24,870 bases of DNA, from the IMG/VR virus record IMGVR_UViG_3300012919_000038, positions 1 through 24,870 of that record; one strand, given 5' to 3'. The translations under genes and the position numbers were made by a program. The notes beneath the pieces were generated by a model. It made no database searches, was not told the origin of the DNA, and was given only the letters and a program-made list of their open reading frames with translations. Source of the stretch: a virus. Position 1 is the first letter of the stretch. Every line of letters starts with the position of its first letter. This document shows positions 712-24,870 of this stretch, one piece after another.

Positions 712-927
712 TCAAAACATAGGCACTGGATCTTTGTAGTAAAGCCAACTATCAACATATATCAGATTTTCTATTAGATGATACTCTCCAAACTCACGAT
801 CAGAGAAATAAACAATAGCCTCGGACTGATCACCAATTTTATAGACCTCAGTTATAAGACCGGGAGGAGGATTTTCGTAGTCTTTCGCGTCTTCAATATG
901 GAAAACTAAGTCACCCGGCTGCATCAT
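712..927 (-). CDS. MKVGDLV-family small protein (MMQPGDLVF variant), 71 aa
   Basis: This is the most downstream member of the array of tiny paralogs. The N-terminus is MMQPGDLVFHIEDA, followed by PGLITEVYKIG and EAIVYFSD, a pattern suggesting a small beta-barrel. I place the start at ATG 927, 7 nt after GGAG; ATG 924 and TTG 930 are alternatives. It overlaps the preceding gene by 17 nt. The C-terminus LYYKDPVPMF lacks the ESR tail of other members because no further array gene follows; a tRNA does. Function unknown. Confidence 0.75.
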   Translation of the reverse strand: MMQPGDLVFHIEDAKDYENPPPGLITEVYKIGDQSEAIVYFSDREFGEYHLIENLIYVDSWLYYKDPVPMF

Positions 928-1093
928 CAAGTTGCTCCAAAAGATCTTTATGGATTAACATCTCTTTACCTTGATGTTCTAGGCAGATATAAACATCAAA
1001 GATGCTAATAAAACTACAAATCGATCCATATGGCAAATAGCTTTGACTTGTGCCTTCTTTCCTAACTAAAACTAGTTTATCTCCTGGCTTCAT
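911..1093 (-). CDS. MKVGDLV-family small protein (MKPGDKLVLV variant), 60 aa
   Basis: The N-terminus MKPGDKLVLVRKEG is a diverged form of the array motif, with an extra residue between Asp and Leu. The middle SICSFISIFDVYICLEHQG alternates hydrophobic residues as beta strands do. ATG 1093 overlaps the stop of the zinc-ribbon gene as ATGA, implying translational coupling. Its end overlaps the next gene by 17 nt. Function unknown; an SH3/KOW-like barrel is my inference from the spacing of Gly, Val and hydrophobic residues. Confidence 0.75.
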   Translation of the reverse strand: MKPGDKLVLVRKEGTSQSYLPYGSICSFISIFDVYICLEHQGKEMLIHKDLLEQLDDAAG

Positions 1094-1293
1094 CTTCCAG
1101 CATCCTTGGCCATAGACTTGCTTGTGATGTACATATACCCGCCCTTGTTATATGCTGGCGCTGTGCATCGCGATTTGTGCAAAATCTGCCTAGCGGCTTC
1201 ATTATCTCCGCACTCAAGACAAGTATAATAACCAAGAGCAAATCGTCTAGGATTAAATTTATCTCCACATTCAACACACTCAGGTCTTTTCAT
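1090..1293 (-). CDS. zinc-ribbon protein, 67 aa
   Basis: The protein carries two CxxC pairs, CVECGDKF (residues 5-12) and CLECGDN (25-31), spaced as a treble-clef or zinc-ribbon finger, followed by a conserved-looking YNKGGYMYIT segment. Small proteins of this type occur in many tailed phages and are usually hypothetical; binding of nucleic acid or protein is possible. ATG 1293 lies 14 nt inside the end of the preceding MKVGDLV-family gene, and its stop overlaps the next start as ATGA. Another frame over the same stretch lacks a sensible motif and is rejected. Confidence 0.82.
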   Translation of the reverse strand: MKRPECVECGDKFNPRRFALGYYTCLECGDNEAARQILHKSRCTAPAYNKGGYMYITSKSMAKDAGR

Positions 1294-1444
1294 GATTTTC
1301 TACCTCTGAATAATCACAATATATCATCGCCTCCTCTTTGGGAAACTCAACTAAAATAGTGCTTTGATTAGCATAAAATCTAACGATTTTGCCAGCACCA
1401 TATTCAGGACGACCTTTTACTTTAACTAAATCACCGACTTTCAT
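1280..1444 (-). CDS. MKVGDLV-family small protein, 54 aa
   Basis: The N-terminus is MKVGDLVKVKGRPEYG, followed by AGKIVRFYANQ and ILVEFPKEEA, a strand-turn-strand pattern typical of the array. ATG 1444 sits within a 14-nt overlap with the upstream gene, whose tail is ENESR. The start region (1415-1445) is a perfect 31-bp repeat of the start of the member at 2001-2183, pointing to recent duplication or conversion. Its own end overlaps the zinc-ribbon gene by 14 nt. Function unknown. Confidence 0.8.
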   Translation of the reverse strand: MKVGDLVKVKGRPEYGAGKIVRFYANQSTILVEFPKEEAMIYCDYSEVENHEKT

Positions 1445-1445
1445 T
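1415..1445. repeat. 31-bp direct repeat, copy A
   Basis: This stretch is identical to 2154-2184. It spans the junction overlap and the first ten codons (MKVGDLVKVK) of the member ending at 1280. At 31 bp the identity exceeds what the protein motif alone requires, because synonymous positions also match. Confidence 0.85.
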
Positions 1446-1715
1446 TTCAATCTCATATGAAGGACAAACCAACCATACTTTATTTCTAGGACTCCAACCT
1501 TCTTTGAAGAACCTGCCCATTGCTAAAACTTCTACAACTGGTTTCGTAGGGTTGCTGTCTGTTACAATAAAACTATAGGAACTAATATATTTTGGTAAAG
1601 GTTTTTTTCTTTTTGCTATCGATAAAAGGTTCTCTTTGGTCTTAACCTTTGATTTCAAAGCTATCAACGCGGTGTATTTTTTTCTTGGATTACACTCCCA
1701 GTCTTCAACTTTCAC
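1431..1715 (-). CDS. hypothetical basic protein in the MKVGDLV array, 94 aa
   Basis: GTG 1715 begins MKVEDWECNPRKKYTAL, a degraded form of the array motif, but the body is different: longer and Lys-rich (ALKSKVKTKENL, AKRKKPLPKYI), ending PSYEIENESR. The ESR tail comes from the 14-nt overlap with the next gene, as in true members. Its start overlaps the previous gene by 11 nt rather than 14, as if three bases were lost from the junction. It may be a separate gene captured between array junctions. No domain recognised. Confidence 0.65.
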   Translation of the reverse strand: MKVEDWECNPRKKYTALIALKSKVKTKENLLSIAKRKKPLPKYISSYSFIVTDSNPTKPVVEVLAMGRFFKEGWSPRNKVWLVCPSYEIENESR

Positions 1716-1872
1716 TGATAACCCTCAACTGAGTCAAATACATATCTACCTCACCTGCTGGCCACTGAACTGTAGCATATTTATGGCCGTCTCCAGCGTT
1801 CCATATTCTGGTTACAAGACCTGCGCCGTCCGCTTCCCAACACAATTGCACAACCAAATCACCGACTTTCAC
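1705..1872 (-). CDS. MKVGDLV-family small protein, 55 aa
   Basis: GTG 1872 starts the protein (read MKVGDLVVQLCWEADG). It is preceded by GGAGG at 5-6 nt, much stronger than any signal for in-frame codons further upstream. The body GLVTRIWNAGDGHKYATVQW and tail YLTQLRVISES match the family plan: conserved start, a G-hydrophobic strand, a V-x-W strand and a final L-x-hydrophobic strand. It overlaps its upstream neighbour by 14 nt. Function unknown. Confidence 0.78.
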   Translation of the reverse strand: MKVGDLVVQLCWEADGAGLVTRIWNAGDGHKYATVQWPAGEVDMYLTQLRVISES

Positions 1873-1875
1873 TGA
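1853..1875. repeat. 23-bp direct repeat at an array junction, copy A
   Basis: This stretch is identical to 1995-2017 and covers the GTG start region of the 1705-1872 gene together with the ESR tail of the 1859-2014 gene. Confidence 0.8.
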
Positions 1876-2014
1876 CAACCTCCAGGCCAATAGTATAGTT
1901 GTCTGCATCTTCAACTGTACCGTCATCGAGCCATCTTACCAGTGTCTCGAAGTCATTGGCGCAGATGATGAGGCCAAGGTATCCGCTATGTTCTACCAAA
2001 TCACCGACTTTCAC
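1859..2014 (-). CDS. MKVGDLV-family small protein, 51 aa
   Basis: This is a short member: GTG 2014 reads MKVGDLVEHSGYLG, then LIICANDFETLVRWLDDG and a tail LEVVSESR. Both ends use the 14-nt overlap, so this gene is bounded by two copies of the same junction word. It is the clearest example of a cassette in the array. No recognised domain beyond the family pattern. Confidence 0.78.
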   Translation of the reverse strand: MKVGDLVEHSGYLGLIICANDFETLVRWLDDGTVEDADNYTIGLEVVSESR

Positions 2015-2017
2015 TGA
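1995..2017. repeat. 23-bp direct repeat at an array junction, copy B
   Basis: Second copy of the repeat at 1853-1875. The two copies flank the 51-aa member, so homologous recombination between them would delete or duplicate exactly one gene and keep the reading frames. Confidence 0.8.
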
Positions 2018-2183
2018 TTACCTCTATATCACACCCAGCAGCATGCACGTCACGTAGATGGTCCAGCATTTTTACACGCCACTCATCACCACGCCAATCG
2101 GGACGATGGTAACTCTCAACTAGCACGCCTAGTTTTGTACCGTAGTGCCTTGTTTTTACTTTAACTAAATCACCGACTTTCAT
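2001..2183 (-). CDS. MKVGDLV-family small protein, 60 aa
   Basis: ATG 2183 starts MKVGDLVKVKTRHYGTKLG, followed by VLVESYHRP, EWRVKMLDHL and the tail DIEVISESR. The start lies in the 14-nt overlap with the end of the GIY-YIG gene, and the end lies in a 14-nt overlap with the next member. The first ten codons are identical in DNA to those of the member at 1280-1444. Function unknown. Confidence 0.8.
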   Translation of the reverse strand: MKVGDLVKVKTRHYGTKLGVLVESYHRPDWRGDEWRVKMLDHLRDVHAAGCDIEVISESR

Positions 2184-2184
2184 T
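2154..2184. repeat. 31-bp direct repeat, copy B
   Basis: Second copy of the perfect repeat at 1415-1445, located at the boundary between the GIY-YIG gene and the next array member. Confidence 0.85.
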
Positions 2185-2424
2185 AACAATCTCTTCTTTT
2201 TGTTTCCGTTTCAGGCGTTTGAACTTGATCTCAGCCCTCATAGCTGAAGATCTATCAGGATGTGACTCCGACAAAACAATCTTTGTTGGCCTTCTTGTTC
2301 TAGTGTATTTTGCACCGCGCTTGGTGTGATTGTGTTCGTGTAATCTTCTCTCGATATTCGTTGTCACACCAGCATAATAAGTACCGTCAGCACAAAGTAA
2401 AACGTAAAACCACCAAACGTTCAC
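2170..2424 (-). CDS. GIY-YIG domain protein (YhbQ/UPF0213-like), 84 aa
   Basis: The sequence fits a stand-alone GIY-YIG nuclease fold: WWFYVLLCADGTYYAGVTTN carries the two Tyr/Gly motifs, IERRLHEH the catalytic-type Arg, and SSAMRAEIKFKRL the conserved Glu. Length is typical of the YhbQ group. The start is GTG 2424, with GGGG 5-6 nt upstream. The C-terminus EEIVNESR carries the array tail, because the end overlaps the next member by 14 nt. Its place inside the repeat array could make it a mobile or recombination-linked gene; DNA cleavage is known for the family but unproven here. Confidence 0.83.
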   Translation of the reverse strand: MNVWWFYVLLCADGTYYAGVTTNIERRLHEHNHTKRGAKYTRTRRPTKIVLSESHPDRSSAMRAEIKFKRLKRKQKEEIVNESR

Positions 2425-2445
2425 ATCGACCCCATATTTTGATCT

Positions 2446-2739
2446 TCATTTCACACTCAGATATGGAATTCCATTTGGCATTTTCCCTTTCACAACCCCG
2501 CCATGCTTGGCACAAACCAGAGTCACGACGTCGGAGGGGACATACCCATATACAGTACCAGTGTAATTTTCTTTGTCCTCTGCATAATCGACCAACAAAG
2601 ATTCGTAATCATTCGGAAAGCCGATCTCCACTGCGACATATTTGTCGGCGTTATCAATGCGAGGTTCACAATAATTAAACCTACTCGCTTGTACACTCAT
2701 GCTGAATCCGTCAGCACATTCTATTCTTTCATTATTCAT
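2446..2739 (-). CDS. conserved-type phage hypothetical protein, 97 aa
   Basis: The protein begins MNNERIECADGFSMSVQASR, then FNYCEPRIDNADKYVAVEIG and later TVYGYVPSDVVTLVCAKHGG. The pattern reminds me of a small hypothetical family common in tailed phages, but I cannot name it. It has no membrane segment, and its Cys residues are not in a clear zinc motif. ATG 2739 overlaps the end of the preceding MKVGDLV-family gene by 8 nt. It is unrelated to the array proteins around it. Confidence 0.75.
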   Translation of the reverse strand: MNNERIECADGFSMSVQASRFNYCEPRIDNADKYVAVEIGFPNDYESLLVDYAEDKENYTGTVYGYVPSDVVTLVCAKHGGVVKGKMPNGIPYLSVK

Positions 2740-2917
2740 CTATTTTCTCCAGCCATGTGGCTCTCATCCAAGCTGACTCGTAGCCGTGCTCAAACCAATG
2801 CACCCTATAAGGGCATGCGTTGGAATTTTTTAATTGCGGTGTGCTCACCTCTACTATAATCCCCACATTCGCAGGGTAAAGGCCGTGAATGTTTTTTACC
2901 AAATCACCTACTTTCAT
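2732..2917 (-). CDS. MKVGDLV-family small protein, 61 aa
   Basis: ATG 2917 starts MKVGDLVKNIHGLYPANVG, then IIVEVSTPQ, PYRVHWFEHGYESAW and RATWLEKIDE. The Val-x-Trp strand and the later Trp are shared with the members at 3112-3309 and 3691-3882. The start lies in a 14-nt overlap with the upstream member; here the third codon is GTA. The end has no ESR tail because the next gene is not an array member. Confidence 0.8.
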   Translation of the reverse strand: MKVGDLVKNIHGLYPANVGIIVEVSTPQLKNSNACPYRVHWFEHGYESAWMRATWLEKIDE

Positions 2918-3125
2918 TTACAATCTCCACCCAGCCATTTTTAACAGCCAACATATCCATTTGCACAGGCTCGTGATTATTAGAAGGCCAAGAGACCATA
3001 ACGTATTTATGGCCGTTGGGATATGCGCGCTTATTATTAACTTCCGCAGGATAACTACGGAGTTCACTCACGATAATACCAATGTCGCCATCGGCGGAAT
3101 CTCTAACCAAATCACCCACTTTCAC
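2904..3125 (-). CDS. MKVGDLV-family small protein, 73 aa
   Basis: GTG 3125 reads MKVGDLVRDSADGDIGIIV, followed by KYVMVSWPSNN and a tail GWVEIVNESR. The segment DGDIGIIV is close to DGDIGVVI in the member at 3480-3725, so these two are probably sister copies. Both ends use the 14-nt overlap. Function unknown; a small barrel fold is inferred. Confidence 0.8.
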   Translation of the reverse strand: MKVGDLVRDSADGDIGIIVSELRSYPAEVNNKRAYPNGHKYVMVSWPSNNHEPVQMDMLAVKNGWVEIVNESR

Positions 3126-3309
3126 TTACCAACTCCAAATCACCAGCTCTGTGCCAAAGACTCTCTTGTCCCCATTGAACTTGATACCATAGGCCAGATG
3201 TGTCGTACTCATCAATCATTATAATAACGCCGGATCGATAGTAAATATTTTTATCAGCAGTTTCGTATGAGTAGCCTGATTTAAGACTCACTAAATCGCC
3301 AACCTTCAT
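3112..3309 (-). CDS. MKVGDLV-family small protein, 65 aa
   Basis: ATG 3309 starts MKVGDLVSLKSGYSYE, then SGVIIMIDEYD, WYQVQWGQESLWH and DLELVSESG. The tail is ESG rather than ESR because the junction word here has G in the third position of the next gene's Val codon. The start directly abuts the previous stop (TGA then ATG) with no overlap. Closest relative in the window by eye is 3691-3882. Confidence 0.8.
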   Translation of the reverse strand: MKVGDLVSLKSGYSYETADKNIYYRSGVIIMIDEYDTSGLWYQVQWGQESLWHRAGDLELVSESG

Positions 3310-3483
3310 TCAAGCCTCGCTGACAACTTTAATTTCTGAATGTAAAATGCGTCTCTTAACACCGTCTCTCAAACCGTACAAAACGTACCTATCTTCGCTA
3401 TGGGTATGATCGTCTAGCTTCTCTAAAACAAGATAGTACCGTCTTGTTTCGTAGAGTACCGACACCAAATCACCGACCTTCAT
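3310..3483 (-). CDS. MKVGDLV-family small protein, 57 aa
   Basis: ATG 3483 starts MKVGDLVSVLYETRRYYLV, followed by YVLYGLRDGVKRRILHSE and KVVSEA. The start overlaps the previous stop as ATGA. The frame is open further upstream to a codon at 3552, but that part lies inside the preceding gene and begins before the family start, so I reject it. The truncated-looking SEA tail could be a remnant of the SESR tail after loss of the 14-nt overlap. Confidence 0.78.
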   Translation of the reverse strand: MKVGDLVSVLYETRRYYLVLEKLDDHTHSEDRYVLYGLRDGVKRRILHSEIKVVSEA

Positions 3484-3725
3484 GCCCTGCTGATGATGTG
3501 AAACATTTCTTTTCCAGTATTGAAATCTTCGGAACACCATGCGTCTGTGCATAGGCCAGCATTAATCCAGCGCGCTTCAACCACAATTCTTTCTTTAGAA
3601 AAGTAATATGGGTCTTCTTTAGTTGAAATAACTACGCCGATATCACCGTCATTGCATCCAATAATATCGCCTACTTTTGGAAATGCTGAGCTATTTCTTT
3701 CCGTCGCTAACAAGTCGCAATTCAT
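3480..3725 (-). CDS. MKVGDLV-family protein with N-terminal extension, 81 aa
   Basis: ATG 3725, after a GGAAGGA ribosome-binding site, starts MNCDLLATERNSSAF; the family motif then appears internally as PKVGDIIGCNDGDIGVVI, followed by VVEARWINAG. The extension lies in a 35-nt overlap with the upstream gene. It looks as if the native start was lost and a new upstream start adopted, giving about 15 extra residues. The end overlaps the next start as ATGA. Confidence 0.68.
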   Translation of the reverse strand: MNCDLLATERNSSAFPKVGDIIGCNDGDIGVVISTKEDPYYFSKERIVVEARWINAGLCTDAWCSEDFNTGKEMFHIISRA

Positions 3726-3882
3726 CTTCCTTCCACCATTCTTGGTCACTCATCCAATGAATTTCATAGTACACTATTCCATAATCATCCTCATAACAAT
3801 CAAGAATCACACCATATCGATATTCATCAGTGAACATTCCATCAGCGCGGACACGAGGCTGTACTATGTCTCCCACTTTCAT
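3691..3882 (-). CDS. MKVGDLV-family small protein, 63 aa
   Basis: ATG 3882 starts MKVGDIVQPRVRADGMF, then YRYGVILDCYEDDYG, YYEIHWMSDQEWW and DELRLVSDGKK. The G-V-I, x-H-W and terminal L-x-L-V-S elements align with the 3112-3309 member. The Shine-Dalgarno sequence is weak, and 14 nt separate it from the upstream stop. Function unknown. Confidence 0.78.
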   Translation of the reverse strand: MKVGDIVQPRVRADGMFTDEYRYGVILDCYEDDYGIVYYEIHWMSDQEWWKEDELRLVSDGKK

Positions 3883-3896
3883 TTATCAAAATATAT

Positions 3897-4103
3897 CTAC
3901 GAACTAGAATTAGTTAAGATATTTTTAATGCTTCCGTTTTTTTCTACCGAGGCAGACTCCGTGCCATCATTAGAAATGATTTGACATGGCGTTAGAAAAA
4001 AAACTTTCGCTGCCTCGGCACATTCCTCGATAGTATTACAGGTTATGTTCCTCACATCAGACATGTCGGTATCTGGTGTAACAATATATGTCTTTGTCAT
4101 CAT
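3897..4103 (-). CDS. hypothetical protein, 68 aa
   Basis: Two adjacent ATGs (4103, 4100) follow GGAG at proper spacing, so I choose MMTKTYIVTPDTDMSD over an upstream TTG. The rest, ITCNTIEECAEAAKVFFLT and ASVEKNGSIKNILTN, suggests a small alpha/beta fold. It is not an array member although it sits between two of them. Family not recognised. Confidence 0.65.
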   Translation of the reverse strand: MMTKTYIVTPDTDMSDVRNITCNTIEECAEAAKVFFLTPCQIISNDGTESASVEKNGSIKNILTNSSS

Positions 4104-4119
4104 CAATACTCCGCTTGAA

Positions 4120-4302
4120 CTATACTTTTTCAATACATATTAACGGCGTCCAGGCTTCTTGAGGTCCGTACTCATCAGTAAGCCAGCGTATCCAGGCGCC
4201 TTCATTATTACTTATACTTTCTAGCCTTAGAATAACACCCATGTGGCCGACAAGATAACTACGACTAGAATCTGACCACTTGACTAAATCGCCAATGTCC
4301 AT
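4120..4302 (-). CDS. MKVGDLV-family small protein (MDIGDLV variant), 60 aa
   Basis: This is the first array member in transcription order. ATG 4302 starts MDIGDLVKWSDSSRSY, then GHMGVILRLESI, AWIRWLTDE and WTPLICIEKV, with the same G-V-I, x-R-W and final hydrophobic strand as other members. No clear Shine-Dalgarno sequence is visible. Its end overlaps possible upstream codons of the next gene but not my chosen start. Confidence 0.75.
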   Translation of the reverse strand: MDIGDLVKWSDSSRSYLVGHMGVILRLESISNNEGAWIRWLTDEYGPQEAWTPLICIEKV

Positions 4303-4749: not shown

Positions 4750-5751
4750 CTAAATCCTGTGTTTGGAATCTGAAAAATATATATCTACATCTGATAGTTC
4801 TTTCTTTACGAAATCAAGCATCTCATTCTCTCCAGAGAATGAAATTATTTCATCGTTATTAATTAGTCTCCAAGTGTCTAAAGATCTCAAAACATCAACT
4901 TTATTAAGCACTAACTTATTAACAGCATTGACTGCTATCGATCTTTTCAAGTTTGACAAGTTCAAATAATTGCACTGTCTTGGACGTCCAGTGGTGGCGC
5001 CATACTCCTCGCCTGCCTCACGCATGCGAGCAAAAAATTCTCTCTCTTTCGGCTCGTCGATTGGCTCAAACTGTTTCGCGCCGACGTAGGTTTCATATAC
5101 CTTGCCCACTCCCCATACATCCTCAACTGAGTTGTGTGGAATACCATTGAGCAAGGCACCAGCGACTCCGCAGTGGCTTGAAGTTACATAGGGGTAGTCT
5201 CCCCAGTCGATATCCAACTCAAAACCTTGTGCGCCTTCACATAGAATGTTGACACTACAGGGGATACTATAGAATTCCTCATATAAATCAATTAGATATG
5301 GCTTTAGAGCGGAAACATCCTTTGCCTGTACACCAAGGCGAGCGTACTTGTCACGGTATGCTGGTCCGTTTCCTCTTTTGGTTGTGCCAATCTTCTTCTC
5401 TGAATGTTCCTCTTGAACATGAGCGTCGGAAATAACGTGAGTATTTTTGGCAATGAAAATCTTTCCCTTCGCATTAACTCCACCCTCTTCCAATTCCGCT
5501 AGTTCTTTAAAAAACTGTTCTACATTAACAACACAGCCAGGACCTATGATAGATTTAATACCATAAAATACACCTGCTGGTATGTGGTGTGTTACAAATT
5601 TACGACCCTCATGATAGATCGTATGTCCAGCGTTGCACCCGCCATTGAATCTTAAAACGTGCGTATAATCTTTGTATTTACACAAATAATGTGTAACTTT
5701 TCCCTTAGCCTCATCCCCATGTTGTAAACCAATAACTACGTCCGCACGCAT
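4750..5751 (-). CDS. purA: adenylosuccinate synthetase (PurA-type), 333 aa
   Basis: PurA joins IMP and aspartate with GTP, the committed step to AMP. Visible motifs are GLQHGDEAKGK (8-18, with the catalytic-type Asp13), NAGHT (40-44, His43), IGTTKRGNGP (121-130), EGAQG then YPYVTSS (172-192), GATTGRPR (251-258) and guanine-recognition NKVD (283-286). At 333 residues it is nearer the short archaeal/viral form than the roughly 430-aa bacterial enzyme. The usual TRVGAGPFPTE segment is replaced by TYVGAKQFEP (221-230), so substrate handling may differ. Asp13 is kept, arguing for PurA rather than the aminoadenine enzyme PurZ. ATG 5751 follows AAAAGGAG. Confidence 0.9.
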   Translation of the reverse strand: MRADVVIGLQHGDEAKGKVTHYLCKYKDYTHVLRFNGGCNAGHTIYHEGRKFVTHHIPAGVFYGIKSIIGPGCVVNVEQFFKELAELEEGGVNAKGKIFIAKNTHVISDAHVQEEHSEKKIGTTKRGNGPAYRDKYARLGVQAKDVSALKPYLIDLYEEFYSIPCSVNILCEGAQGFELDIDWGDYPYVTSSHCGVAGALLNGIPHNSVEDVWGVGKVYETYVGAKQFEPIDEPKEREFFARMREAGEEYGATTGRPRQCNYLNLSNLKRSIAVNAVNKLVLNKVDVLRSLDTWRLINNDEIISFSGENEMLDFVKKELSDVDIYFSDSKHRI

Positions 5752-6094: not shown

Positions 6095-6107
6095 TTGTTT
6101 CTCTCAG

Positions 6108-6180
6108 TACCCCCTGTAGGGATCGAACCTACGACCTACGGATTAAGAGTCCGGTGCTCTATCAACTGAGCTAAGAGGGC
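6108..6180 (-). tRNA. tRNA-Lys (CTT anticodon)
   Basis: Cloverleaf of 73 nt: acceptor GCCCTCT/AGGGGGT (first pair G-U), D stem GCTC/GAGC, anticodon loop CTCTTAA, T arm GTAGG/CCTAC, discriminator A. The anticodon stem CCGGA/TCCGT has a C-U mismatch at its outer end. The genome reads CTG after the discriminator, so CCA must be added after transcription. Confidence 0.88.
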
Positions 6181-6185
6181 ATATA

Positions 6186-6260
6186 TGGTAGTCTCACGGG
6201 GAATCGAACCCCGGCTACCGGGATGAAAGCCCGGTGTTCTAACCACTAAACTATGAGACC
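6186..6260 (-). tRNA. tRNA-Glu (TTC anticodon)
   Basis: Cloverleaf of 75 nt with CCA encoded: acceptor GGTCTCA/TGAGACT (first pair G-U), anticodon stem CCGGG/CCCGG with loop CTTTCAT, T arm CGGGG/CCCCG. It lies 5 nt upstream of tRNA-Lys. Confidence 0.92.
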
Positions 6261-7660: not shown

Positions 7661-7737
7661 TGGCACGCCCGACAGGATTCGAACCTGTGACCCTCGGCTT
7701 AGAAGGCCGATGCTCTATCCAGCTGAGCTACGGGCGC
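7661..7737 (-). tRNA. tRNA-Arg (TCT anticodon)
   Basis: Cloverleaf of 77 nt with CCA encoded: acceptor GCGCCCG/CGGGCGT, D stem GCTC/GAGC, anticodon stem TCGGC/GCCGA with loop CTTCTAA, T arm ACAGG/CCTGT, discriminator G. It reads AGA, a codon often rare in bacteria and frequent in AT-rich phages. Confidence 0.93.
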
Positions 7738-7741
7738 TTAG

Positions 7742-8011
7742 TTATTCTTCGTCGGTTATGAGTACTTCGTAAATAAGAGGAGGCTCACTTCTATAATGTA
7801 CAGTTTTAAAATGAGTCCATTTTGATTCAGGTTTGTGTCTTACTTTGGATGCTGACTCCTTCACAGAAATATATAAGTTGCCACACTGGCAATATCCTTT
7901 GTAAACATTCATCAAAGTATCGTCACCACAAAAATTACATTCAATTACCGTTCGATAAAGAGGAACATATTCTTCCTCTACTTCCTCTTCGTGATTGAAA
8001 CCGATGCCCAT
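7742..8011 (-). CDS. zinc-ribbon protein, 89 aa
   Basis: ATG 8011 starts MGIGFNHEEEVEEEYVPLYR. Four Cys occur as CNFCGDD and CQCGN, about 17 residues apart, a zinc-ribbon arrangement. The remainder is VKESASKVRHKPESKWTHFK and a tail ending LITDEE. The frame is open upstream, but those codons lie in the tRNA-Asn gene and are rejected as a start. Nucleic-acid or protein binding is plausible; no family named. Confidence 0.7.
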   Translation of the reverse strand: MGIGFNHEEEVEEEYVPLYRTVIECNFCGDDTLMNVYKGYCQCGNLYISVKESASKVRHKPESKWTHFKTVHYRSEPPLIYEVLITDEE

Positions 8012-8043
8012 ACAGTATATAGACCCTAAAGTATTAAAAAATG

Positions 8044-8116
8044 CTGCGCAGACAGGGCTCGAACCTGTGACCCGGCGGTTAACAGCCGCCTGCTCTACCA
8101 ACTGAGCTACTGCGCA
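8044..8116 (-). tRNA. tRNA-Asn (GTT anticodon)
   Basis: Cloverleaf of 73 nt: acceptor TGCGCAG/CTGCGCA, D stem GCTC/GAGC, anticodon stem GGCGG/CCGCC with loop CTGTTAA, T arm ACAGG/CCTGT, discriminator G. No CCA is encoded; the next bases are CAT. Confidence 0.92.
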
Positions 8117-8120
8117 TTAC

Positions 8121-8197
8121 TGGAGCCTCCTCACGGATTCGAACCGTGGACCTGATGATTACAAATCAACTGCTCTGGCCATCTGAGCTAAGGAGGC
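8121..8197 (-). tRNA. tRNA-Thr (TGT anticodon)
   Basis: Cloverleaf of 77 nt with CCA encoded: acceptor GCCTCCT/AGGAGGC, D stem GCTC/GAGC, anticodon loop TTTGTAA, T arm CACGG/CCGTG, discriminator T. The anticodon stem GTTGA/TCATC has one T-T mismatch. It lies 4 nt upstream of tRNA-Asn. Confidence 0.9.
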
Positions 8198-8608: not shown

Positions 8609-9529
8609 TTAATAATAATCACGACGGTAATTTAGTAAAGCCAATTCTTTGCTCTTAGCCTCAATCATGATATCAACATCCAAACCATAAGTATTAATCT
8701 CGTCGACAATCATATCGGAATGTGCATTAGGCCTGATCTTTGGATCTTGTTTCTCGCGTGAACGAGACTCTGAATAGTGTACAACTGGCTTGATGTCACC
8801 CCAAGTCATTGCTGCCATAAGCAAAGCCTCTTCTTGGTCAATACCGCCAGTACAAAAAGTATGATGATGTAAATCGTGAACAATAGGTATTCCAATCTTC
8901 TGATATACCTCTTCGTACAACTCTTTGGTAGAGTACAAACTAGCTTTGTCATCATTCTCAACAGTCAAGCGAGACTTGGCAGCTTCAGATAATCGGTGAT
9001 AGTTGCGATTGAAATTAGCTAGCGCCATTGGCTTGTCGTTATAGTGCGCGCCGACGTGAATGTTTAGCTTGTTGTACGGAGTGCGCGAAAGGCCAAGCAT
9101 ATCAAAAAGCTCACCGTGCGTATCTAGATCACGAATAGTGTTGAGTACAACTTGCTCATTGGGCGATGTAAGTTTGTTGAATGGGCCAGGATGTGAAGTA
9201 ATTCGATGGCCATGGTCGTCGATAAAGTCACCCGCATCTTGCAGCGCATCGCAAATGGCTTCGAAGTCTGGCAAGTCAGACAGTTTGTACTCAGAAGACC
9301 ACGGAAAAATATCTGATGATATACGAAAGAAACGAATGTCATGCTTTTCATTCCACTTAAGAATCGTAAGCAGGTCGAGACAGTTCTGTAATGCCAGTTC
9401 AGAAGCATAAGGCAAGCCTTTGGCCTTGAACGTTCGTTTGATCATTGATCGATTAGTTGTGATACGTTTAGATTTAGGTTGCTCGGAGAGCGTCATATTA
9501 ATGCAGGCATAGCCTAGGTTGTTTTTCAT
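8609..9529 (-). CDS. uvsE: UV-damage endonuclease (UvsE/UVDE family), 306 aa
   Basis: UVDE is a TIM-barrel metal-dependent nuclease that nicks DNA 5' of UV photoproducts. Motifs in order: LGYACINMTL (5-14), FRISSDIFPWSS (68-79), HPGPFNKL (113-120), LNIHVG (155-160), ENDD (191-194), VHDLHHHTF (217-225), HYSESR (251-256), HSDM (270-273) and MIEAKSKELAL (288-298). These supply the His, Glu and Asp metal ligands and the active-site Lys. Length is normal for bacterial UvsE. ATG 9529 overlaps the preceding stop as ATGA and lacks its own Shine-Dalgarno sequence, so translation is probably coupled. Confidence 0.92.
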   Translation of the reverse strand: MKNNLGYACINMTLSEQPKSKRITTNRSMIKRTFKAKGLPYASELALQNCLDLLTILKWNEKHDIRFFRISSDIFPWSSEYKLSDLPDFEAICDALQDAGDFIDDHGHRITSHPGPFNKLTSPNEQVVLNTIRDLDTHGELFDMLGLSRTPYNKLNIHVGAHYNDKPMALANFNRNYHRLSEAAKSRLTVENDDKASLYSTKELYEEVYQKIGIPIVHDLHHHTFCTGGIDQEEALLMAAMTWGDIKPVVHYSESRSREKQDPKIRPNAHSDMIVDEINTYGLDVDIMIEAKSKELALLNYRRDYY

Positions 9530-12298: not shown

Positions 12299-12552
12299 AT
12301 CTCTGCCTGCAAGCCATATACATCTTTTTGGTTTACATACCAAGTTTCACCTAGATAATGTACACCCAAAAGCCTTCGTGGGTGCGTATTCTCTATTTCA
12401 GTAACAAGTAAATTCAAAGGCTCTTTGATGGTAAAATACTTTTCTGGGATTGATTCAATTGAATTTTTCTTGTCATGAGAACGTGCAAACTTAAGCAAGC
12501 TAACACTCGAAGGTATATAAATAAGTTGTCCTATTTTTATTTCACCCTTCAT
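12295..12552 (-). CDS. hypothetical small beta protein downstream of groEL, 85 aa
   Basis: ATG 12552 overlaps the groEL stop as ATGA. The protein reads MKGEIKIGQLIYIPSSVSLL, then PLNLLVTEIENTH and HYLGETWYVNQKDVYGL, a beta-rich layout. It sits where a groES gene would be expected, but lacks the GroES mobile-loop and D(R)VL-type motifs, so I do not call it a co-chaperonin. The KIGQLIYIP start faintly recalls the MKVGDLV family and may share an SH3-like fold. Confidence 0.7.
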   Translation of the reverse strand: MKGEIKIGQLIYIPSSVSLLKFARSHDKKNSIESIPEKYFTIKEPLNLLVTEIENTHPRRLLGVHYLGETWYVNQKDVYGLQAEI

Positions 12553-14114
12553 ACTTCAACGATCGCATAGTTAGTTGTTATTAAGGTAGAGGCCACCGAA
12601 ACTGCGTTAACCAGAGCAGTAGAAGTTACCTTAACGGGGTCAATGATACCCACACTTAACATAGGTACCAGTGCATCAGAGTTAAAATCCCAGCCTTCGC
12701 CTTCTGGCGACTTGCTAACTGTATCTACTATTAGGTCCGGGCTCAATCCTGCATTGCTAGCCATCTGTCGAAGCGGAGCGCTTAAAGATTTACGCACAAT
12801 TTCTGTTCCAAGCCTCTGGTCTTCGTTTTCTGTGTCGACCTCGAAGTCCATGCAGCGAACCAAAGCAGAGCCTCCACCGGAAACAATACCGCCTTCGCGC
12901 GCTGATTTGACAGCTTCCAAGGCATCTTCGATACGATGCTTCTTCTCTATCATTTCAATCTCTGTCGGAGCACCAACTCTTATGACCGCTACCCCGCTAG
13001 CAAGTCGTGAGATTCTTTCTTGAATCCTGAAGCACTCCTCTGAATCTTCAGTTTGCTTTATTTCTTCTTTTAAAGATTCAATTCTCTTGTCAATTTGTTG
13101 CCAATCACAATTACCACTGATCAAAGTGGTAAAGTTTTTTAGCACCTCTATCTTTTTACATCGTCCAAGATTCTCTAACTTTACATCTTGCAGCTTAATT
13201 CCCGAATCCCGACCAATAAAAGTTGCGCCACAAGAAATAGATAAGTCTTCCATTATCTTCTTGCGCTCTTGGCCATAACGCGGGGCCTTGACAGCTGCGA
13301 TCTTCATTGTGCCTCGCACAGTGTTCATAATTAATGCGGCGAGTGCTTGGCCCTCGACCTCCTCGGCAACAATAATTAAGGGACGTCCTTCTCGTGAGAC
13401 GAATTCTAGAACAGGCAAAATATCTTCAACCAATTCTATCTTGTGATTGGTGACCAATAACAAGGCATCATCGTACTCTACAGCAGCCTTTCTTTCGTTT
13501 GTTATGAATGCAGAGGCAAAATAGCCAGAGTCAAATCTAAATCCTTCTGTAATATCGACAGAAGTCTCCATTGATTTGCCGTCTTGAATAGTAATTGAAC
13601 CATCTTTACCAGCTTGATCGACGGCCATGGCAATCATCTTTCCAATCGATTGATCTCCGTTGGCAGAAATGGTGGCCACATGCTCTATGTCTTCAGTAGA
13701 AGACAAGGGGTGTGACATGCCCTCTAGGCGCTCTAGAAGCGACTCTACGGCTTTATCCATACCTCGCTTAAGTTCAACCGGGGAAGCCCCTGCAGCTAGG
13801 TATTTCTGTGCGTTATTAAGGATTGCTCGGGCTAGTACAGTTGACGTGGTTGTACCATCACCGGCCTTGGAATTTGTTTGCGCTGCAGCTTGTTTGATTA
13901 TTTGCGCGCCAACATTCTCAAAAGAATCTTCAAGCTCCACAAAATTAGCTACAGTCACACCATCTTTTGTAATGATTGGTGGATTATTTTTTCTATGCAG
14001 TATAACGTTTCGACCTTTAGGTCCCAAGGTAGAAGCTACATTATCTGCTAGCTTATTTACTCCATCGATTATACGAACCTGCAAATCTTTGCCGTTCTGG
14101 TAGTTTTTAGACAT
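12549..14114 (-). CDS. groEL: GroEL-type chaperonin, 521 aa
   Basis: Complete equatorial, intermediate and apical domains. ATP-site motifs are LGPKGRNV (30-37), KDGVTVA with Asp51, GDGTTT (85-90), GGGSALVR and the Asp of EDALEAVKSA. The apical region EGFRFDSGYFASAF and AEEVEGQALAAL is well kept. The C-terminal Gly-Gly-Met tail of bacterial GroEL is absent; the protein ends ITTNYAIVEV. No groES gene is seen in the window, so it may work alone, as reported for the Pseudomonas phage EL chaperonin, or borrow host GroES. It heads an operon with an unknown, a glutaredoxin and another unknown. ATG 14114 follows GAGG. Confidence 0.96.
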   Translation of the reverse strand: MSKNYQNGKDLQVRIIDGVNKLADNVASTLGPKGRNVILHRKNNPPIITKDGVTVANFVELEDSFENVGAQIIKQAAAQTNSKAGDGTTTSTVLARAILNNAQKYLAAGASPVELKRGMDKAVESLLERLEGMSHPLSSTEDIEHVATISANGDQSIGKMIAMAVDQAGKDGSITIQDGKSMETSVDITEGFRFDSGYFASAFITNERKAAVEYDDALLLVTNHKIELVEDILPVLEFVSREGRPLIIVAEEVEGQALAALIMNTVRGTMKIAAVKAPRYGQERKKIMEDLSISCGATFIGRDSGIKLQDVKLENLGRCKKIEVLKNFTTLISGNCDWQQIDKRIESLKEEIKQTEDSEECFRIQERISRLASGVAVIRVGAPTEIEMIEKKHRIEDALEAVKSAREGGIVSGGGSALVRCMDFEVDTENEDQRLGTEIVRKSLSAPLRQMASNAGLSPDLIVDTVSKSPEGEGWDFNSDALVPMLSVGIIDPVKVTSTALVNAVSVASTLITTNYAIVEV

Positions 14115-22193: not shown

Positions 22194-24870
22194 TTATCCC
22201 AATAATTTAAAATTGTGGTACATGGATCGTGTAGAAAAGCCCCAGGTTTCATTGTAGTCTAATTTTGCCATGTAAGGGCGATTAAGCTGAATCTGATCGG
22301 AATCTCTGATGCCCCAGCACCTAATTTTTGTAATCTCAGATGTTGTATCAATAACATTAAGAATCCAGTAAGGCTTACCGTTTTTGGTTTTTTTACGCAC
22401 TATTTCACGCGGAACAAACCATGCAACACCCAATTTAGGATCCCAACTACCTAGGGGAGGAACTAGATGTCTATCTAAGCTTTCAACAATTTCATCATCC
22501 ATCACTAGTTCAAAAGGGAATATACCAGTTAAAGAACTAATGTGCGTAATTCTTTCAGCTTTTGTGAAATCTCCCATCGATTCATAGATCTCAACATGCT
22601 CCTTAAACTTCTTATTGTTCTTTGGCCTATCGTCGACGACTGATGCCCAAAAATGCTTTAAGCCCGAGAAGCGATCATCCATGAGGCCATCTAAGGCTCC
22701 GCTAAGACACAACACGTTCAAAGCTTTCTTATTCAGCTTTGAATAAGTTATATCCGCGTTGAAAAGAAGATCTTCTATTTTCTCATATGGGCGATGTGCT
22801 ACTATTTGCTCAATAGCTTTGTCGCCCAATCCCTTAATCGAACTTAAAGGTTGAATTAGAGTCTTACCATCTTCGCTAATTTCCCATTGCTTACCAGAAG
22901 TGTTGATATCCAAAGCAGCAATACTAAATCCATACTTTTTAGCTAAACTAATTGCTGACTCTTTTCTTGATTCAGGTTCTTTATCTAAAAATGCCGCTGT
23001 CCAGCACTCAGGATAGTAGTTTAGAAGCCAAGCACACTGGTATGATAGGATAGAATAAGAAACAGCATGAGACTTATTAAACCCATATCCAGAGAAATAT
23101 TCAAAATTCTGCCAAATTTGGCTAGCTGTGGCTCTATCGATGGAGTTTTGTACGCAACCTCGAATAAACTTGTCCTTAATCTCATCTTTTTGTTCATGTC
23201 CTTTTCCCGTACCTTTTTTAGTTAAAAGCTTCCTTAGCTTATTACCCTCTTCTAGGGAGATGTTGTCGCCCAACTTGTGCGCCAACAATGCAATTTGCTC
23301 TTGAAAGATTAGAAAGCCTGCCGTCTCTTCTGTCACTCCCTTTACAATATCATTTACATAACGAATATCACCTGGATTGTTCTTTGCCTTGGCATAAAGC
23401 TTATCAACGTTGGCGCTTAGAGGCCCTGGCCTATAAATAGATGTAATTGCAGAAATGTCAATAATATCTTTAGGTTTTGCGCTCTTGCAGAACCTTTGCG
23501 CTCCGTCATTAGTGAACTGAAAGACTCCAACAAACTTTCCTTCACCGAAGATATTATCATAAACTTCTTTGTCGTTTAAGTCTAAGACATCCGGGTGGAG
23601 AACCTTATTATAATACTCGCTAATATCTTCAAAGGTCGGATCTTCCACGCCCTCGTACCTCTTAAGAATATGACCGATCGCAGATTCGATCATCTCCAGC
23701 GTTGATAGACCCAAAAGATCAAACTTAATGAAACCCAAAGGCTCTAAATGCCTTACGTTTTGGCCTTCAGCCCAAGGCGTCTGAATTACTCCACCGCGAT
23801 TAATCAAGGGCATGTGCTTATCTAAGTTCTCTCCAATTACGACACCGCCTGCATGACGACTAACAGACCTTACTTGTCCATACAAGGCTTCGACGTGAGT
23901 TTTGATGTGTGGGTATTTCTTAAGGAAGCTTTGCAGGCTATCAGAAAACTCCATGACCTCTTCAAAAGTCGGAACATAGAGTCCTGCCTTGATTCCATTC
24001 TTGGCCTTGGCGCCTGGAGTTGCCTCTCTTACCATCACATTCGTGACTTTGTTAACTTCAGTAAAAGGTACTTCGTAAAATTTACCGATGTCCTTGATCA
24101 AAGAGCGCAGCTGCAAAGTGTTGTAATTAGAAATAGGAACAACAGTTGACTCTCCCCACTCCTCCGCTAGAATCTCCTTTAGTCCAAACGCATCGCTGAC
24201 GTCATAATCAATATCTGGATAGTCAGTGGCATCAGAGCGAAGAAAGCGGCTGAACAGGAGACCATACTTTATAGGATCAACTTGCGTGATACCCAAGACG
24301 TAAGCCACAAGGGATCCAGCTGCCGAGCCGCGTCCAGGGCCAGAAAGCATATTCTCATTTGCTTTGTCCGCAATTGCTTTCATAGTCAGGAAGTATTTTG
24401 AAAAACCCCTATCAATAATCACATTCAATTCGTGACGCAGCCTTTCTGTGTATTCTTCATCATTATCCAAACCCATATCGCGAAGACAGCTAATAGAAAT
24501 CTTAAGCAAAGCCTCATCTGCAGTCTCGCCTTCGGGTACGACAAAATCAGGTAGACGAACTGTATCGTCTGGCATGAAATCTTCGATGCGTTCGTGAGCG
24601 ATAAAGTGTGTCTTCACAATAGAATCATACACCAAATCGTCGTCGTAAACAACTTGGCACTCTTCAGAGTATTTCTTGTAGGAATCCCACATCTGATCGC
24701 CATTCTTTGGATACAACTCCATACCCATCTCGTCAACATCAATCGGCAGTTCAGAACTTAACCATTCTGGCTTGTTAGCGCGGTTAAGAAAACCTAGACG
24801 CTTGTACAATTCGCGATCTTTGAATGACTCTGGGCTTGGATAGTGGCTGTCTGCAGTAGAAATAAGCTCC
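22194..24870 (-). CDS. dnaE: DNA polymerase III alpha subunit (DnaE type), 5' end cut by the window
   Basis: The frame is open to the window edge (891 visible residues), so the true start lies outside; the TTG at 24809 is internal. The visible N-terminus holds the end of a PHP domain (ELISTADSHYPSPESF). Catalytic-core motifs are PGRGSAAGSLVAYVLG, YPDIDYDVSD (two catalytic Asp), FIKFDLLGL (third Asp), YRPGPL, FNKSHAVSYSILSYQCAWLL and a helix-hairpin-helix IKGLGDKAIEQI. An OB-like region (YWILNVIDTTSEITKIRCWG) follows, but the C-terminal tail of cellular DnaE seems shortened. A replicative C-family polymerase is less usual in phages than A- or B-family enzymes. Confidence 0.94.
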   Translation of the reverse strand, partial: ELISTADSHYPSPESFKDRELYKRLGFLNRANKPEWLSSELPIDVDEMGMELYPKNGDQMWDSYKKYSEECQVVYDDDLVYDSIVKTHFIAHERIEDFMPDDTVRLPDFVVPEGETADEALLKISISCLRDMGLDNDEEYTERLRHELNVIIDRGFSKYFLTMKAIADKANENMLSGPGRGSAAGSLVAYVLGITQVDPIKYGLLFSRFLRSDATDYPDIDYDVSDAFGLKEILAEEWGESTVVPISNYNTLQLRSLIKDIGKFYEVPFTEVNKVTNVMVREATPGAKAKNGIKAGLYVPTFEEVMEFSDSLQSFLKKYPHIKTHVEALYGQVRSVSRHAGGVVIGENLDKHMPLINRGGVIQTPWAEGQNVRHLEPLGFIKFDLLGLSTLEMIESAIGHILKRYEGVEDPTFEDISEYYNKVLHPDVLDLNDKEVYDNIFGEGKFVGVFQFTNDGAQRFCKSAKPKDIIDISAITSIYRPGPLSANVDKLYAKAKNNPGDIRYVNDIVKGVTEETAGFLIFQEQIALLAHKLGDNISLEEGNKLRKLLTKKGTGKGHEQKDEIKDKFIRGCVQNSIDRATASQIWQNFEYFSGYGFNKSHAVSYSILSYQCAWLLNYYPECWTAAFLDKEPESRKESAISLAKKYGFSIAALDINTSGKQWEISEDGKTLIQPLSSIKGLGDKAIEQIVAHRPYEKIEDLLFNADITYSKLNKKALNVLCLSGALDGLMDDRFSGLKHFWASVVDDRPKNNKKFKEHVEIYESMGDFTKAERITHISSLTGIFPFELVMDDEIVESLDRHLVPPLGSWDPKLGVAWFVPREIVRKKTKNGKPYWILNVIDTTSEITKIRCWGIRDSDQIQLNRPYMAKLDYNETWGFSTRSMYHNFKLLG

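Follow-up and report, generated by a model that had tools for sequence, protein, structure and literature searches.

Turnover of small single-gene cassettes at a shared coding joint in phage-borne arrays

T4-type phages contain PeSLs, mobile cassettes consisting of a promoter plus a stem-loop (Arbiol et al. 2010 and Comeau et al. 2014, as cited in PMC4503421), and cluster K mycobacteriophages contain short asymmetric repeats (i.e., SAS and ESAS) that have been suggested to be targets of homologous recombination (PMC3203893). Here, we compare these and other systems with an array of small genes, most of which probably encode variants of one protein barrel, at positions 712 to 4302 of IMG/VR virus record IMGVR_UViG_3300012919_000038. 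The window that we analyzed is this entire record (24.87 kb). Successive genes of the array and of its relatives in other phages are commonly linked by a short DNA repeat (hereafter, the joint) that is itself coding, and whole genes (i.e., cassettes) are gained and lost at it.

PeSLs are, like the joint, short repeats between small accessory genes of T4-type phages, and they are proposed to serve modular shuffling (PMC4503421). PeSL units lie between genes, whereas the joint lies inside genes as a stop/start overlap without a hairpin and links mostly one protein family. The array lacks the promoter plus stem-loop that define PeSLs and shows repeat-bounded exchange of modules between relatives. 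SAS repeats are likewise located at the starts of many small genes (PMC3203893). They (GGGATAGGAGCCC) lie upstream of the start codons of genes from different families (PMC3203893), whereas the joint spans the start codon and coding sequence of both neighbors and links mostly one family; in addition, the gain and loss of cassettes at the joint can be seen directly. Integrons resemble the array in being chains of single-gene cassettes that have a joint in common and whose content changes from one relative to another. In contrast to integrons, the array is phage-borne, its cassettes have their own start signals, and it lacks an attC-like hairpin and a tyrosine recombinase (detected in 0 of 20 records, several of which are fragments, by a search that was positive in all 14 control genomes).

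At the protein level, T4 MotB and the KOW domains of NusG and Spt5 have an SH3-like barrel with G-D near the first strand, and MotB is a nonessential early product of a T4-type phage. MotB is a single gene, however, while the barrels of the array stand alone (median member length, 62 aa), without an OB domain or a uniform basic charge; the PHROGs search gave only one weak match of one member to the MotB-like family (phrog_1671; E 0.1 over 29 residues), which falls short of membership. PsaE, PWWP, SPbeta YorP, and DUF2158 share the overall SH3-like fold or a weak profile match without sequence-level membership, and their own functions are unrelated or uncharacterized. We place the array closest to PeSLs and SAS, as a case of modular exchange mediated by repeats, in which the cargo is an undescribed protein family.

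Cassette turnover and the coding joint

Relatives of the array were traced through a neighboring PurA-like gene and through the DNA pattern of the joint, a scan for which found at least 119 stretches. About 1,184 members of the family were located in 202 loci (L numbers below), 88 of which hold at least six members and one of which holds the maximum of 34. Typical arrays consist of approximately 10 to 30 tiny genes.

Loci L015 and L017 exhibit 99.5% identity up to the array, where L015 then carries an extra cassette of 81 aa. Identity is approximately 99% on either side of this first differing cassette, and in L017 the blocks on its two sides have a 34-nt overlap that coincides exactly with the joint; at a second differing cassette, the overlap is 19 nt. 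One phage has one copy of the joint where the other has two. In clean cassette insertions and deletions, the flanking blocks overlap by 19 to 38 nt at the joint, and, once duplicate contigs had been removed, 48 of the 68 homologous-block ends fell between −20 and +30 of a member start (12.2 expected). Compared with L003, the window shows approximately 99% identity in the first genes, after which content and order diverge (e.g., the GIY-YIG gene and member h are swapped). The synonymous divergence (dS) between the two is at most 0.05 for the genes from PurA up to the array and 0.2 to 0.7 in many cassettes.

In arrays of at least six members, the best relative of a member was in another phage in 801 cases and in its own array in 19; recent duplicates (i.e., a close local copy) were limited to four members, and the downstream neighbor was also related in only 8 of 57 pairs of 80 to 97% identity. 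These counts imply that cassettes move one at a time or nearly so and that local duplication is not the main way in which arrays grow. The same cassette type is found beside different neighbors in different phages. We are confident that whole cassettes are gained, lost, and reordered at joints between related phages.

A preliminary description of the window had considered the array to be old or under diversifying pressure. The protein types are old, while whole-gene exchange keeps changing what each array contains. Diversifying pressure was not supported: the ratio of nonsynonymous to synonymous divergence (dN/dS) for orthologs in the window and L003 is 0.112, versus 0.091 for the other genes compared, and we reject diversifying selection at the sequence level. 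Since the genes are under purifying selection, working proteins are evidently made.

Where one member follows another, the most frequent arrangement is a 14-nt overlap (517 cases among the approximately 1,184 members), and the next is 4 nt (79 cases). The joint has a rough consensus of about 30 nt (TGGAGGTnnTCARTGAAAGTCGGTGATTTGGT) and serves the upstream gene as last strand and stop codon and the downstream gene as ribosome-binding site, start codon, and first seven codons. Translation of ..AGTGAAAGTCGGTGATTTGG.. gives S-E-S-R-stop in the frame of the upstream gene and (M)-K-V-G-D-L in that of the downstream gene; the upstream stop is supplied by the G-D codons of the next gene (GGTGAT), and the last strand, LEVxSESR, also encodes the ribosome-binding site of that gene. 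SESR or NESR is the usual ending of chained genes and is much less frequent among unchained genes; of 33 near-identical pairs, 14 have the tail in the chained copy only. One cassette type ends in HEKT in the window and in YESR or HESR in L139 and L175. Genes outside the family, including the GIY-YIG gene of the window, also end in the joint. Part of the conservation at the C-terminal end is dictated by the DNA of the gene that follows.

Codon usage within the joint is biased. Codon 4 (G4) is GGT in 93 to 100% of cases versus 30% in gene bodies because of the overlapping stop. Codon 3 (V3) is GTC in 69 to 73% versus 18% in bodies, and the preference holds even without gene overlap (46% versus 18%); codon 7 (V7), also a valine, has no GTC preference. 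Since the codon 3 bias is explained by neither frame and the proteins are very diverged, it suggests constraint or homogenization at the DNA level and is unlikely to be a mere relic. A Shine-Dalgarno-like sequence precedes 87% of chained starts versus 53% of unchained starts. None of four joints folded as single-stranded DNA gave a stable hairpin (z, −0.96 to 1.22), and sigma-70-like promoter sites were not in excess in the array (19 versus 15.2 in shuffles).

Thirteen small genes were confirmed at positions 712 to 4302, all on the minus strand. The preliminary description had presented an array of about 13 paralogs; these members are present, and five nonmember genes lie in the same chain, as follows.

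712 to 924, minus: member a (MQPGDLVFHIED...); family profile E 0.0014; orthologs in L003, L005, and L009; 14-nt overlap of its start with the end of b
911 to 1093, minus: member b (MKPGDKLVLVRK...), doubtful; start motif and position; no family profile match; model pLDDT 61
1090 to 1293, minus: nonmember cassette, small zinc-ribbon-like protein (two CxxC); type found in 16 loci; XPA_N match below cutoff
1280 to 1444, minus: member d, tail HEKT; family profile match; copies in L139 and L175 end in YESR/HESR, and another member follows there
1431 to 1715, minus: nonmember cassette (MKVEDWECNPRKK...), ending ..NESR at the joint of d; each of the 4 loci with this type has it joint-ended
1705 to 1872, minus: member f; family profile match; no ortholog in L003
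1859 to 2014, minus: member g; family profile match; no ortholog in L003; similar gene in L005
2001 to 2183, minus: member h; family profile E 1.4e-9; different neighbor in L003
2170 to 2424, minus: nonmember cassette, GIY-YIG nuclease (PF01541, E 3.9e-17), ending ..VNESR at the joint of h; in the order of L003, after h and not before
2446 to 2739, minus: nonmember cassette, 97 aa; type in 16 loci
2732 to 2917, minus: member k, modeled as an SH3-like barrel; family profile match and predicted structure
2904 to 3125, minus: member l; family profile match
3112 to 3309, minus: member m; family profile match
3310 to 3483, minus: member n; family profile E 0.0029
3480 to 3722, minus: member o, with a 15-residue extension ahead of PKVGDII; body-only profile E 0.0027
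3691 to 3882, minus: member p; family profile match
3897 to 4100, minus: nonmember small gene within the chain; conserved in L003 (dN 0)
4120 to 4302, minus: member r, first of the array, adjoining the genes that lead to PurA; family profile match; orthologs in several other loci
1430 to 1444, 1858 to 1872, 2000 to 2014, 2903 to 2917, and 3111 to 3125, minus: joints, with the stop of the upstream gene inside the start of the next gene, from the sequence
2169 to 2183, minus: joint from the GIY-YIG gene to member h, from the sequence

Nonfamily cassettes also recur in other arrays (L085, L120, L121, L126, and L176), including a MazG-like protein, a small zinc-ribbon protein, a 135-aa protein (20 loci), and a GIY-YIG nuclease (11 loci). 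Except for the GIY-YIG gene of the window, nonfamily cassettes were named by reading.

The protein family and its predicted fold

The start pattern RTGAAAGTNGGNGAT (at most two mismatches) occurs 10 times, always on the minus strand of the array, compared with 1.37 expected occurrences (maximum of 4 in 100 shuffles). In a search of 17,155 open reading frames (ORFs), the family profile matched 11 of the 13 genes at an E value of ≤0.003, a result that is partly circular since the profile was built with the window members included. A second profile, from which the start and tail were removed and which was trained on one cluster, matched member o. Twelve of the thirteen genes originally proposed as a family are thus matched by one profile or the other, while the gene at 911 to 1093, with neither a family profile match nor a good predicted structure, is doubtful. 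The shared start is not a mere initiation motif of unrelated proteins: the body-only profile links clusters, matching 195 of 728 bodies of other clusters (E ≤0.01); among equal numbers (728 each) of shuffled bodies and other ORFs, it matched 0 and 5, respectively. In the window, it matched seven genes at E ≤0.003, of which five are members of the training cluster. The strong divergence of the paralogs was borne out by a mean column identity of 25%; the approximately 1,180 genes fall into 473 clusters.

Structures were predicted for members k and b, and the other members are tied in by the body profile. With 99 relatives in the alignment, member k is predicted to form a five-strand SH3-like barrel (pLDDT, 89; pTM, 0.74), with strands at residues 6 to 9, 18 to 24, 37 to 41, 49 to 51, and 56 to 58 and a short helical turn ahead of the last strand. 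This prediction, together with profile and fold matches to KOW domains, agrees with the SH3/KOW-like barrel supposed in the preliminary description. Most genes of the array probably encode variants of one small barrel of approximately 60 residues, each with its own surface.

The closest solved fold to member k is PsaE (Z, 9.5; root mean square deviation, 1.6 over 57 residues), a subunit of photosystem I that is not known to bind nucleic acid. Other Foldseek neighbors are PWWP, Spt5, NusG, and Bacillus YorP; because none of the Protein Data Bank (PDB) matches was below E 0.001, the fold similarity is uninformative on function. When the alignment profile was compared with sequences of solved structures, the nearest was NusG (E 0.0086), and uL24c was at E 0.11. 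A search of the KOW profile in Pfam with the members gave no match. No family covering the set was found in Pfam, PHROGs, NCBIfam, or PADLOC, in keeping with the earlier statement that such an array has no described function, and we found no paper naming this protein family or array. Among 100 members compared with the PADLOC profiles of antiphage defense, one matched at E 0.0042 and the others did not match. The net charge of members ranges from −8 to +5 (5th to 95th percentiles; median, −1).

Explanations for the array

Taken as a whole, the explanation that we find somewhat probable is a phage gene-cassette array in which joint-mediated exchange gives a changeable repertoire of binding domains. 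Each cassette would be one small gene, usually encoding a roughly 60-residue SH3-like barrel that has a surface of its own, and a cassette inserted or removed at any joint would keep its start and stop. Exchange would proceed by homologous recombination between joints, through the RecA/UvsX-type system of the phage itself, during mixed infection. The overlap would couple translation along the chain, and variation among hosts would be the reason that the array persists as a changeable repertoire. Homologous recombination is probably the route of turnover; it appears to be the likeliest one given the lack of a tyrosine recombinase and of a stable hairpin and the presence of a RecA-family (i.e., RecA/UvsX-type) protein in 18 of the 20 records.

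Several points weigh against this explanation. The 14-nt joint is found in only about half of the members, and the rest overlap by 4 nt or stand apart. Recombination is deduced from sequence comparison, the protein partners are hypothetical, and the function is deduced from fold, variability, and accessory setting. Block ends at gene starts would also be expected from random (i.e., illegitimate) recombination followed by selection for intact genes, which would give similar ends since the joint sequence is common to any two cassettes. In that main rival, which we consider unlikely, the joint is kept only as a compact signal for initiation and coupling; it does contain the ribosome-binding site, start, and stop, and mosaicism by illegitimate recombination is well known in phages (PMC3203893). 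However, the codon 3 preference for GTC without overlap is explained by neither frame nor stop, and the flank overlaps of 19 to 38 nt at joints in clean insertions and deletions are those expected of repeats serving as recombination sites. We regard as very improbable an old tandem duplication in each lineage with later divergence, possibly under diversifying selection, which was the reading of the preliminary description: the members are clearly paralogous and strongly diverged, but their nearest relatives lie overwhelmingly in other phages (801 versus 19), recent local duplicates number four, dN/dS is approximately 0.11, and neighbor order is mostly not kept even at 90% identity. Least likely of all is that the array is an integron-like, site-specific system or a diversity-generating retroelement. 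Its single-gene units, separated by short repeated joints, resemble the former, but no tyrosine integrase was found in the 20 records and no stable hairpin in the four joints; as for a retroelement, for which no search aimed at a reverse transcriptase was made, whole genes vary here, with no directed change in one gene, and the low dN/dS likewise argues against it.

What the proteins do is a separate question. They could be nucleic acid binders, i.e., KOW-type modulators of transcription or translation that act, like MotB or the NusG KOW domain, on phage or host expression; this would be compatible with cassette exchange and accords with the profile and fold matches to the KOW domains of NusG, Spt5, and uL24c. 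T4 MotB, a nonessential early protein predicted to have a KOW plus an OB-fold, binds DNA and improves fitness, and small nonessential early T4 proteins of this kind are thought to optimize infection (PMC7827196). Nevertheless, the charges of the members are wide-ranging and slightly acidic on average, and the MotB-like match in PHROGs is single and weak. The best fold match, PsaE, is not known to bind nucleic acid, and overall we doubt that nucleic acid binding is the common role. The range of charges argues for varied partners instead. By analogy with small nonessential early T4 proteins such as MotB, we tentatively suggest that the proteins may be accessory adaptors or inhibitors directed at varying host or competitor proteins, with a role in host takeover or counterdefense. 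Equally conjectural is the wider picture of a T4-type lineage with a shared pool of hundreds of single-gene SH3-like cassettes, a counterpart of the integron without a dedicated recombinase, that supplies a changing host-targeting repertoire.

If true, the favored explanation, the cassette array with exchange at the joints, would represent a further mode of phage exchange in which the recombination joint itself is coding (i.e., stop, ribosome-binding site, and start), such that cassettes can be swapped without loss of function. The 473 clusters form a large and almost unannotated pool of small binding domains that may yield antidefense or takeover proteins, and both the exchange rule and the targets are open to direct test.

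Carrier phages and the rest of the window

Among the loci related through PurA, eleven (two of which are the same sequence) have 6 to 20 members downstream of PurA, and most others have none to two. Nineteen larger records contain 1 to 27 profile matches each; 18 of the 19 encode a T4-type gp23 capsid protein, and 18 of the 19 encode a DNA polymerase III alpha (bacterial-type DnaE). Judging from this gene content (gp23 plus DnaE), the larger genomes that carry arrays are nearly all T4-type. Two of the records (those of L014 and L071) have the same gp23 and DnaE and only one or two members, and they are possibly partial; the array seems to be dispensable within the lineage or absent from these records. 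Some profile matches in three other records (those of L017, L018, and L126) contain one internal stop (TGA or TAA) and are possibly decayed members or joins across a stop.

Searching 50,697 phage records with the array DNA and three members gave no convincing relative and no cultured example, although such a search has low power for short, diverged proteins. In prokaryote genomes, 89 stretches match the joint pattern, mostly as singletons without the family. A few have several members; these belong to metagenome-assembled bins, in several cases from ocean samples, and look like binned phage contigs. Because ocean bins hold such contigs, we infer that the carriers, which are uncultured, large viruses of bacteria, are mostly marine.

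The window also contains seven tRNA genes in three groups (539 to 696, 6107 to 6260, and 7661 to 8197), two of the genes being directly beside the end of the array. Positions 4750 to 5751 encode a short (333 aa) adenylosuccinate-synthetase-like protein, possibly PurA or PurZ (2-aminoadenine synthesis), with at most 37% identity to any phage record. Other genes of the window encode a UvdE UV endonuclease (8609 to 9529), a GroEL-like chaperonin (12549 to 14114; named by reading), and DNA polymerase III alpha (22194 to 24809).

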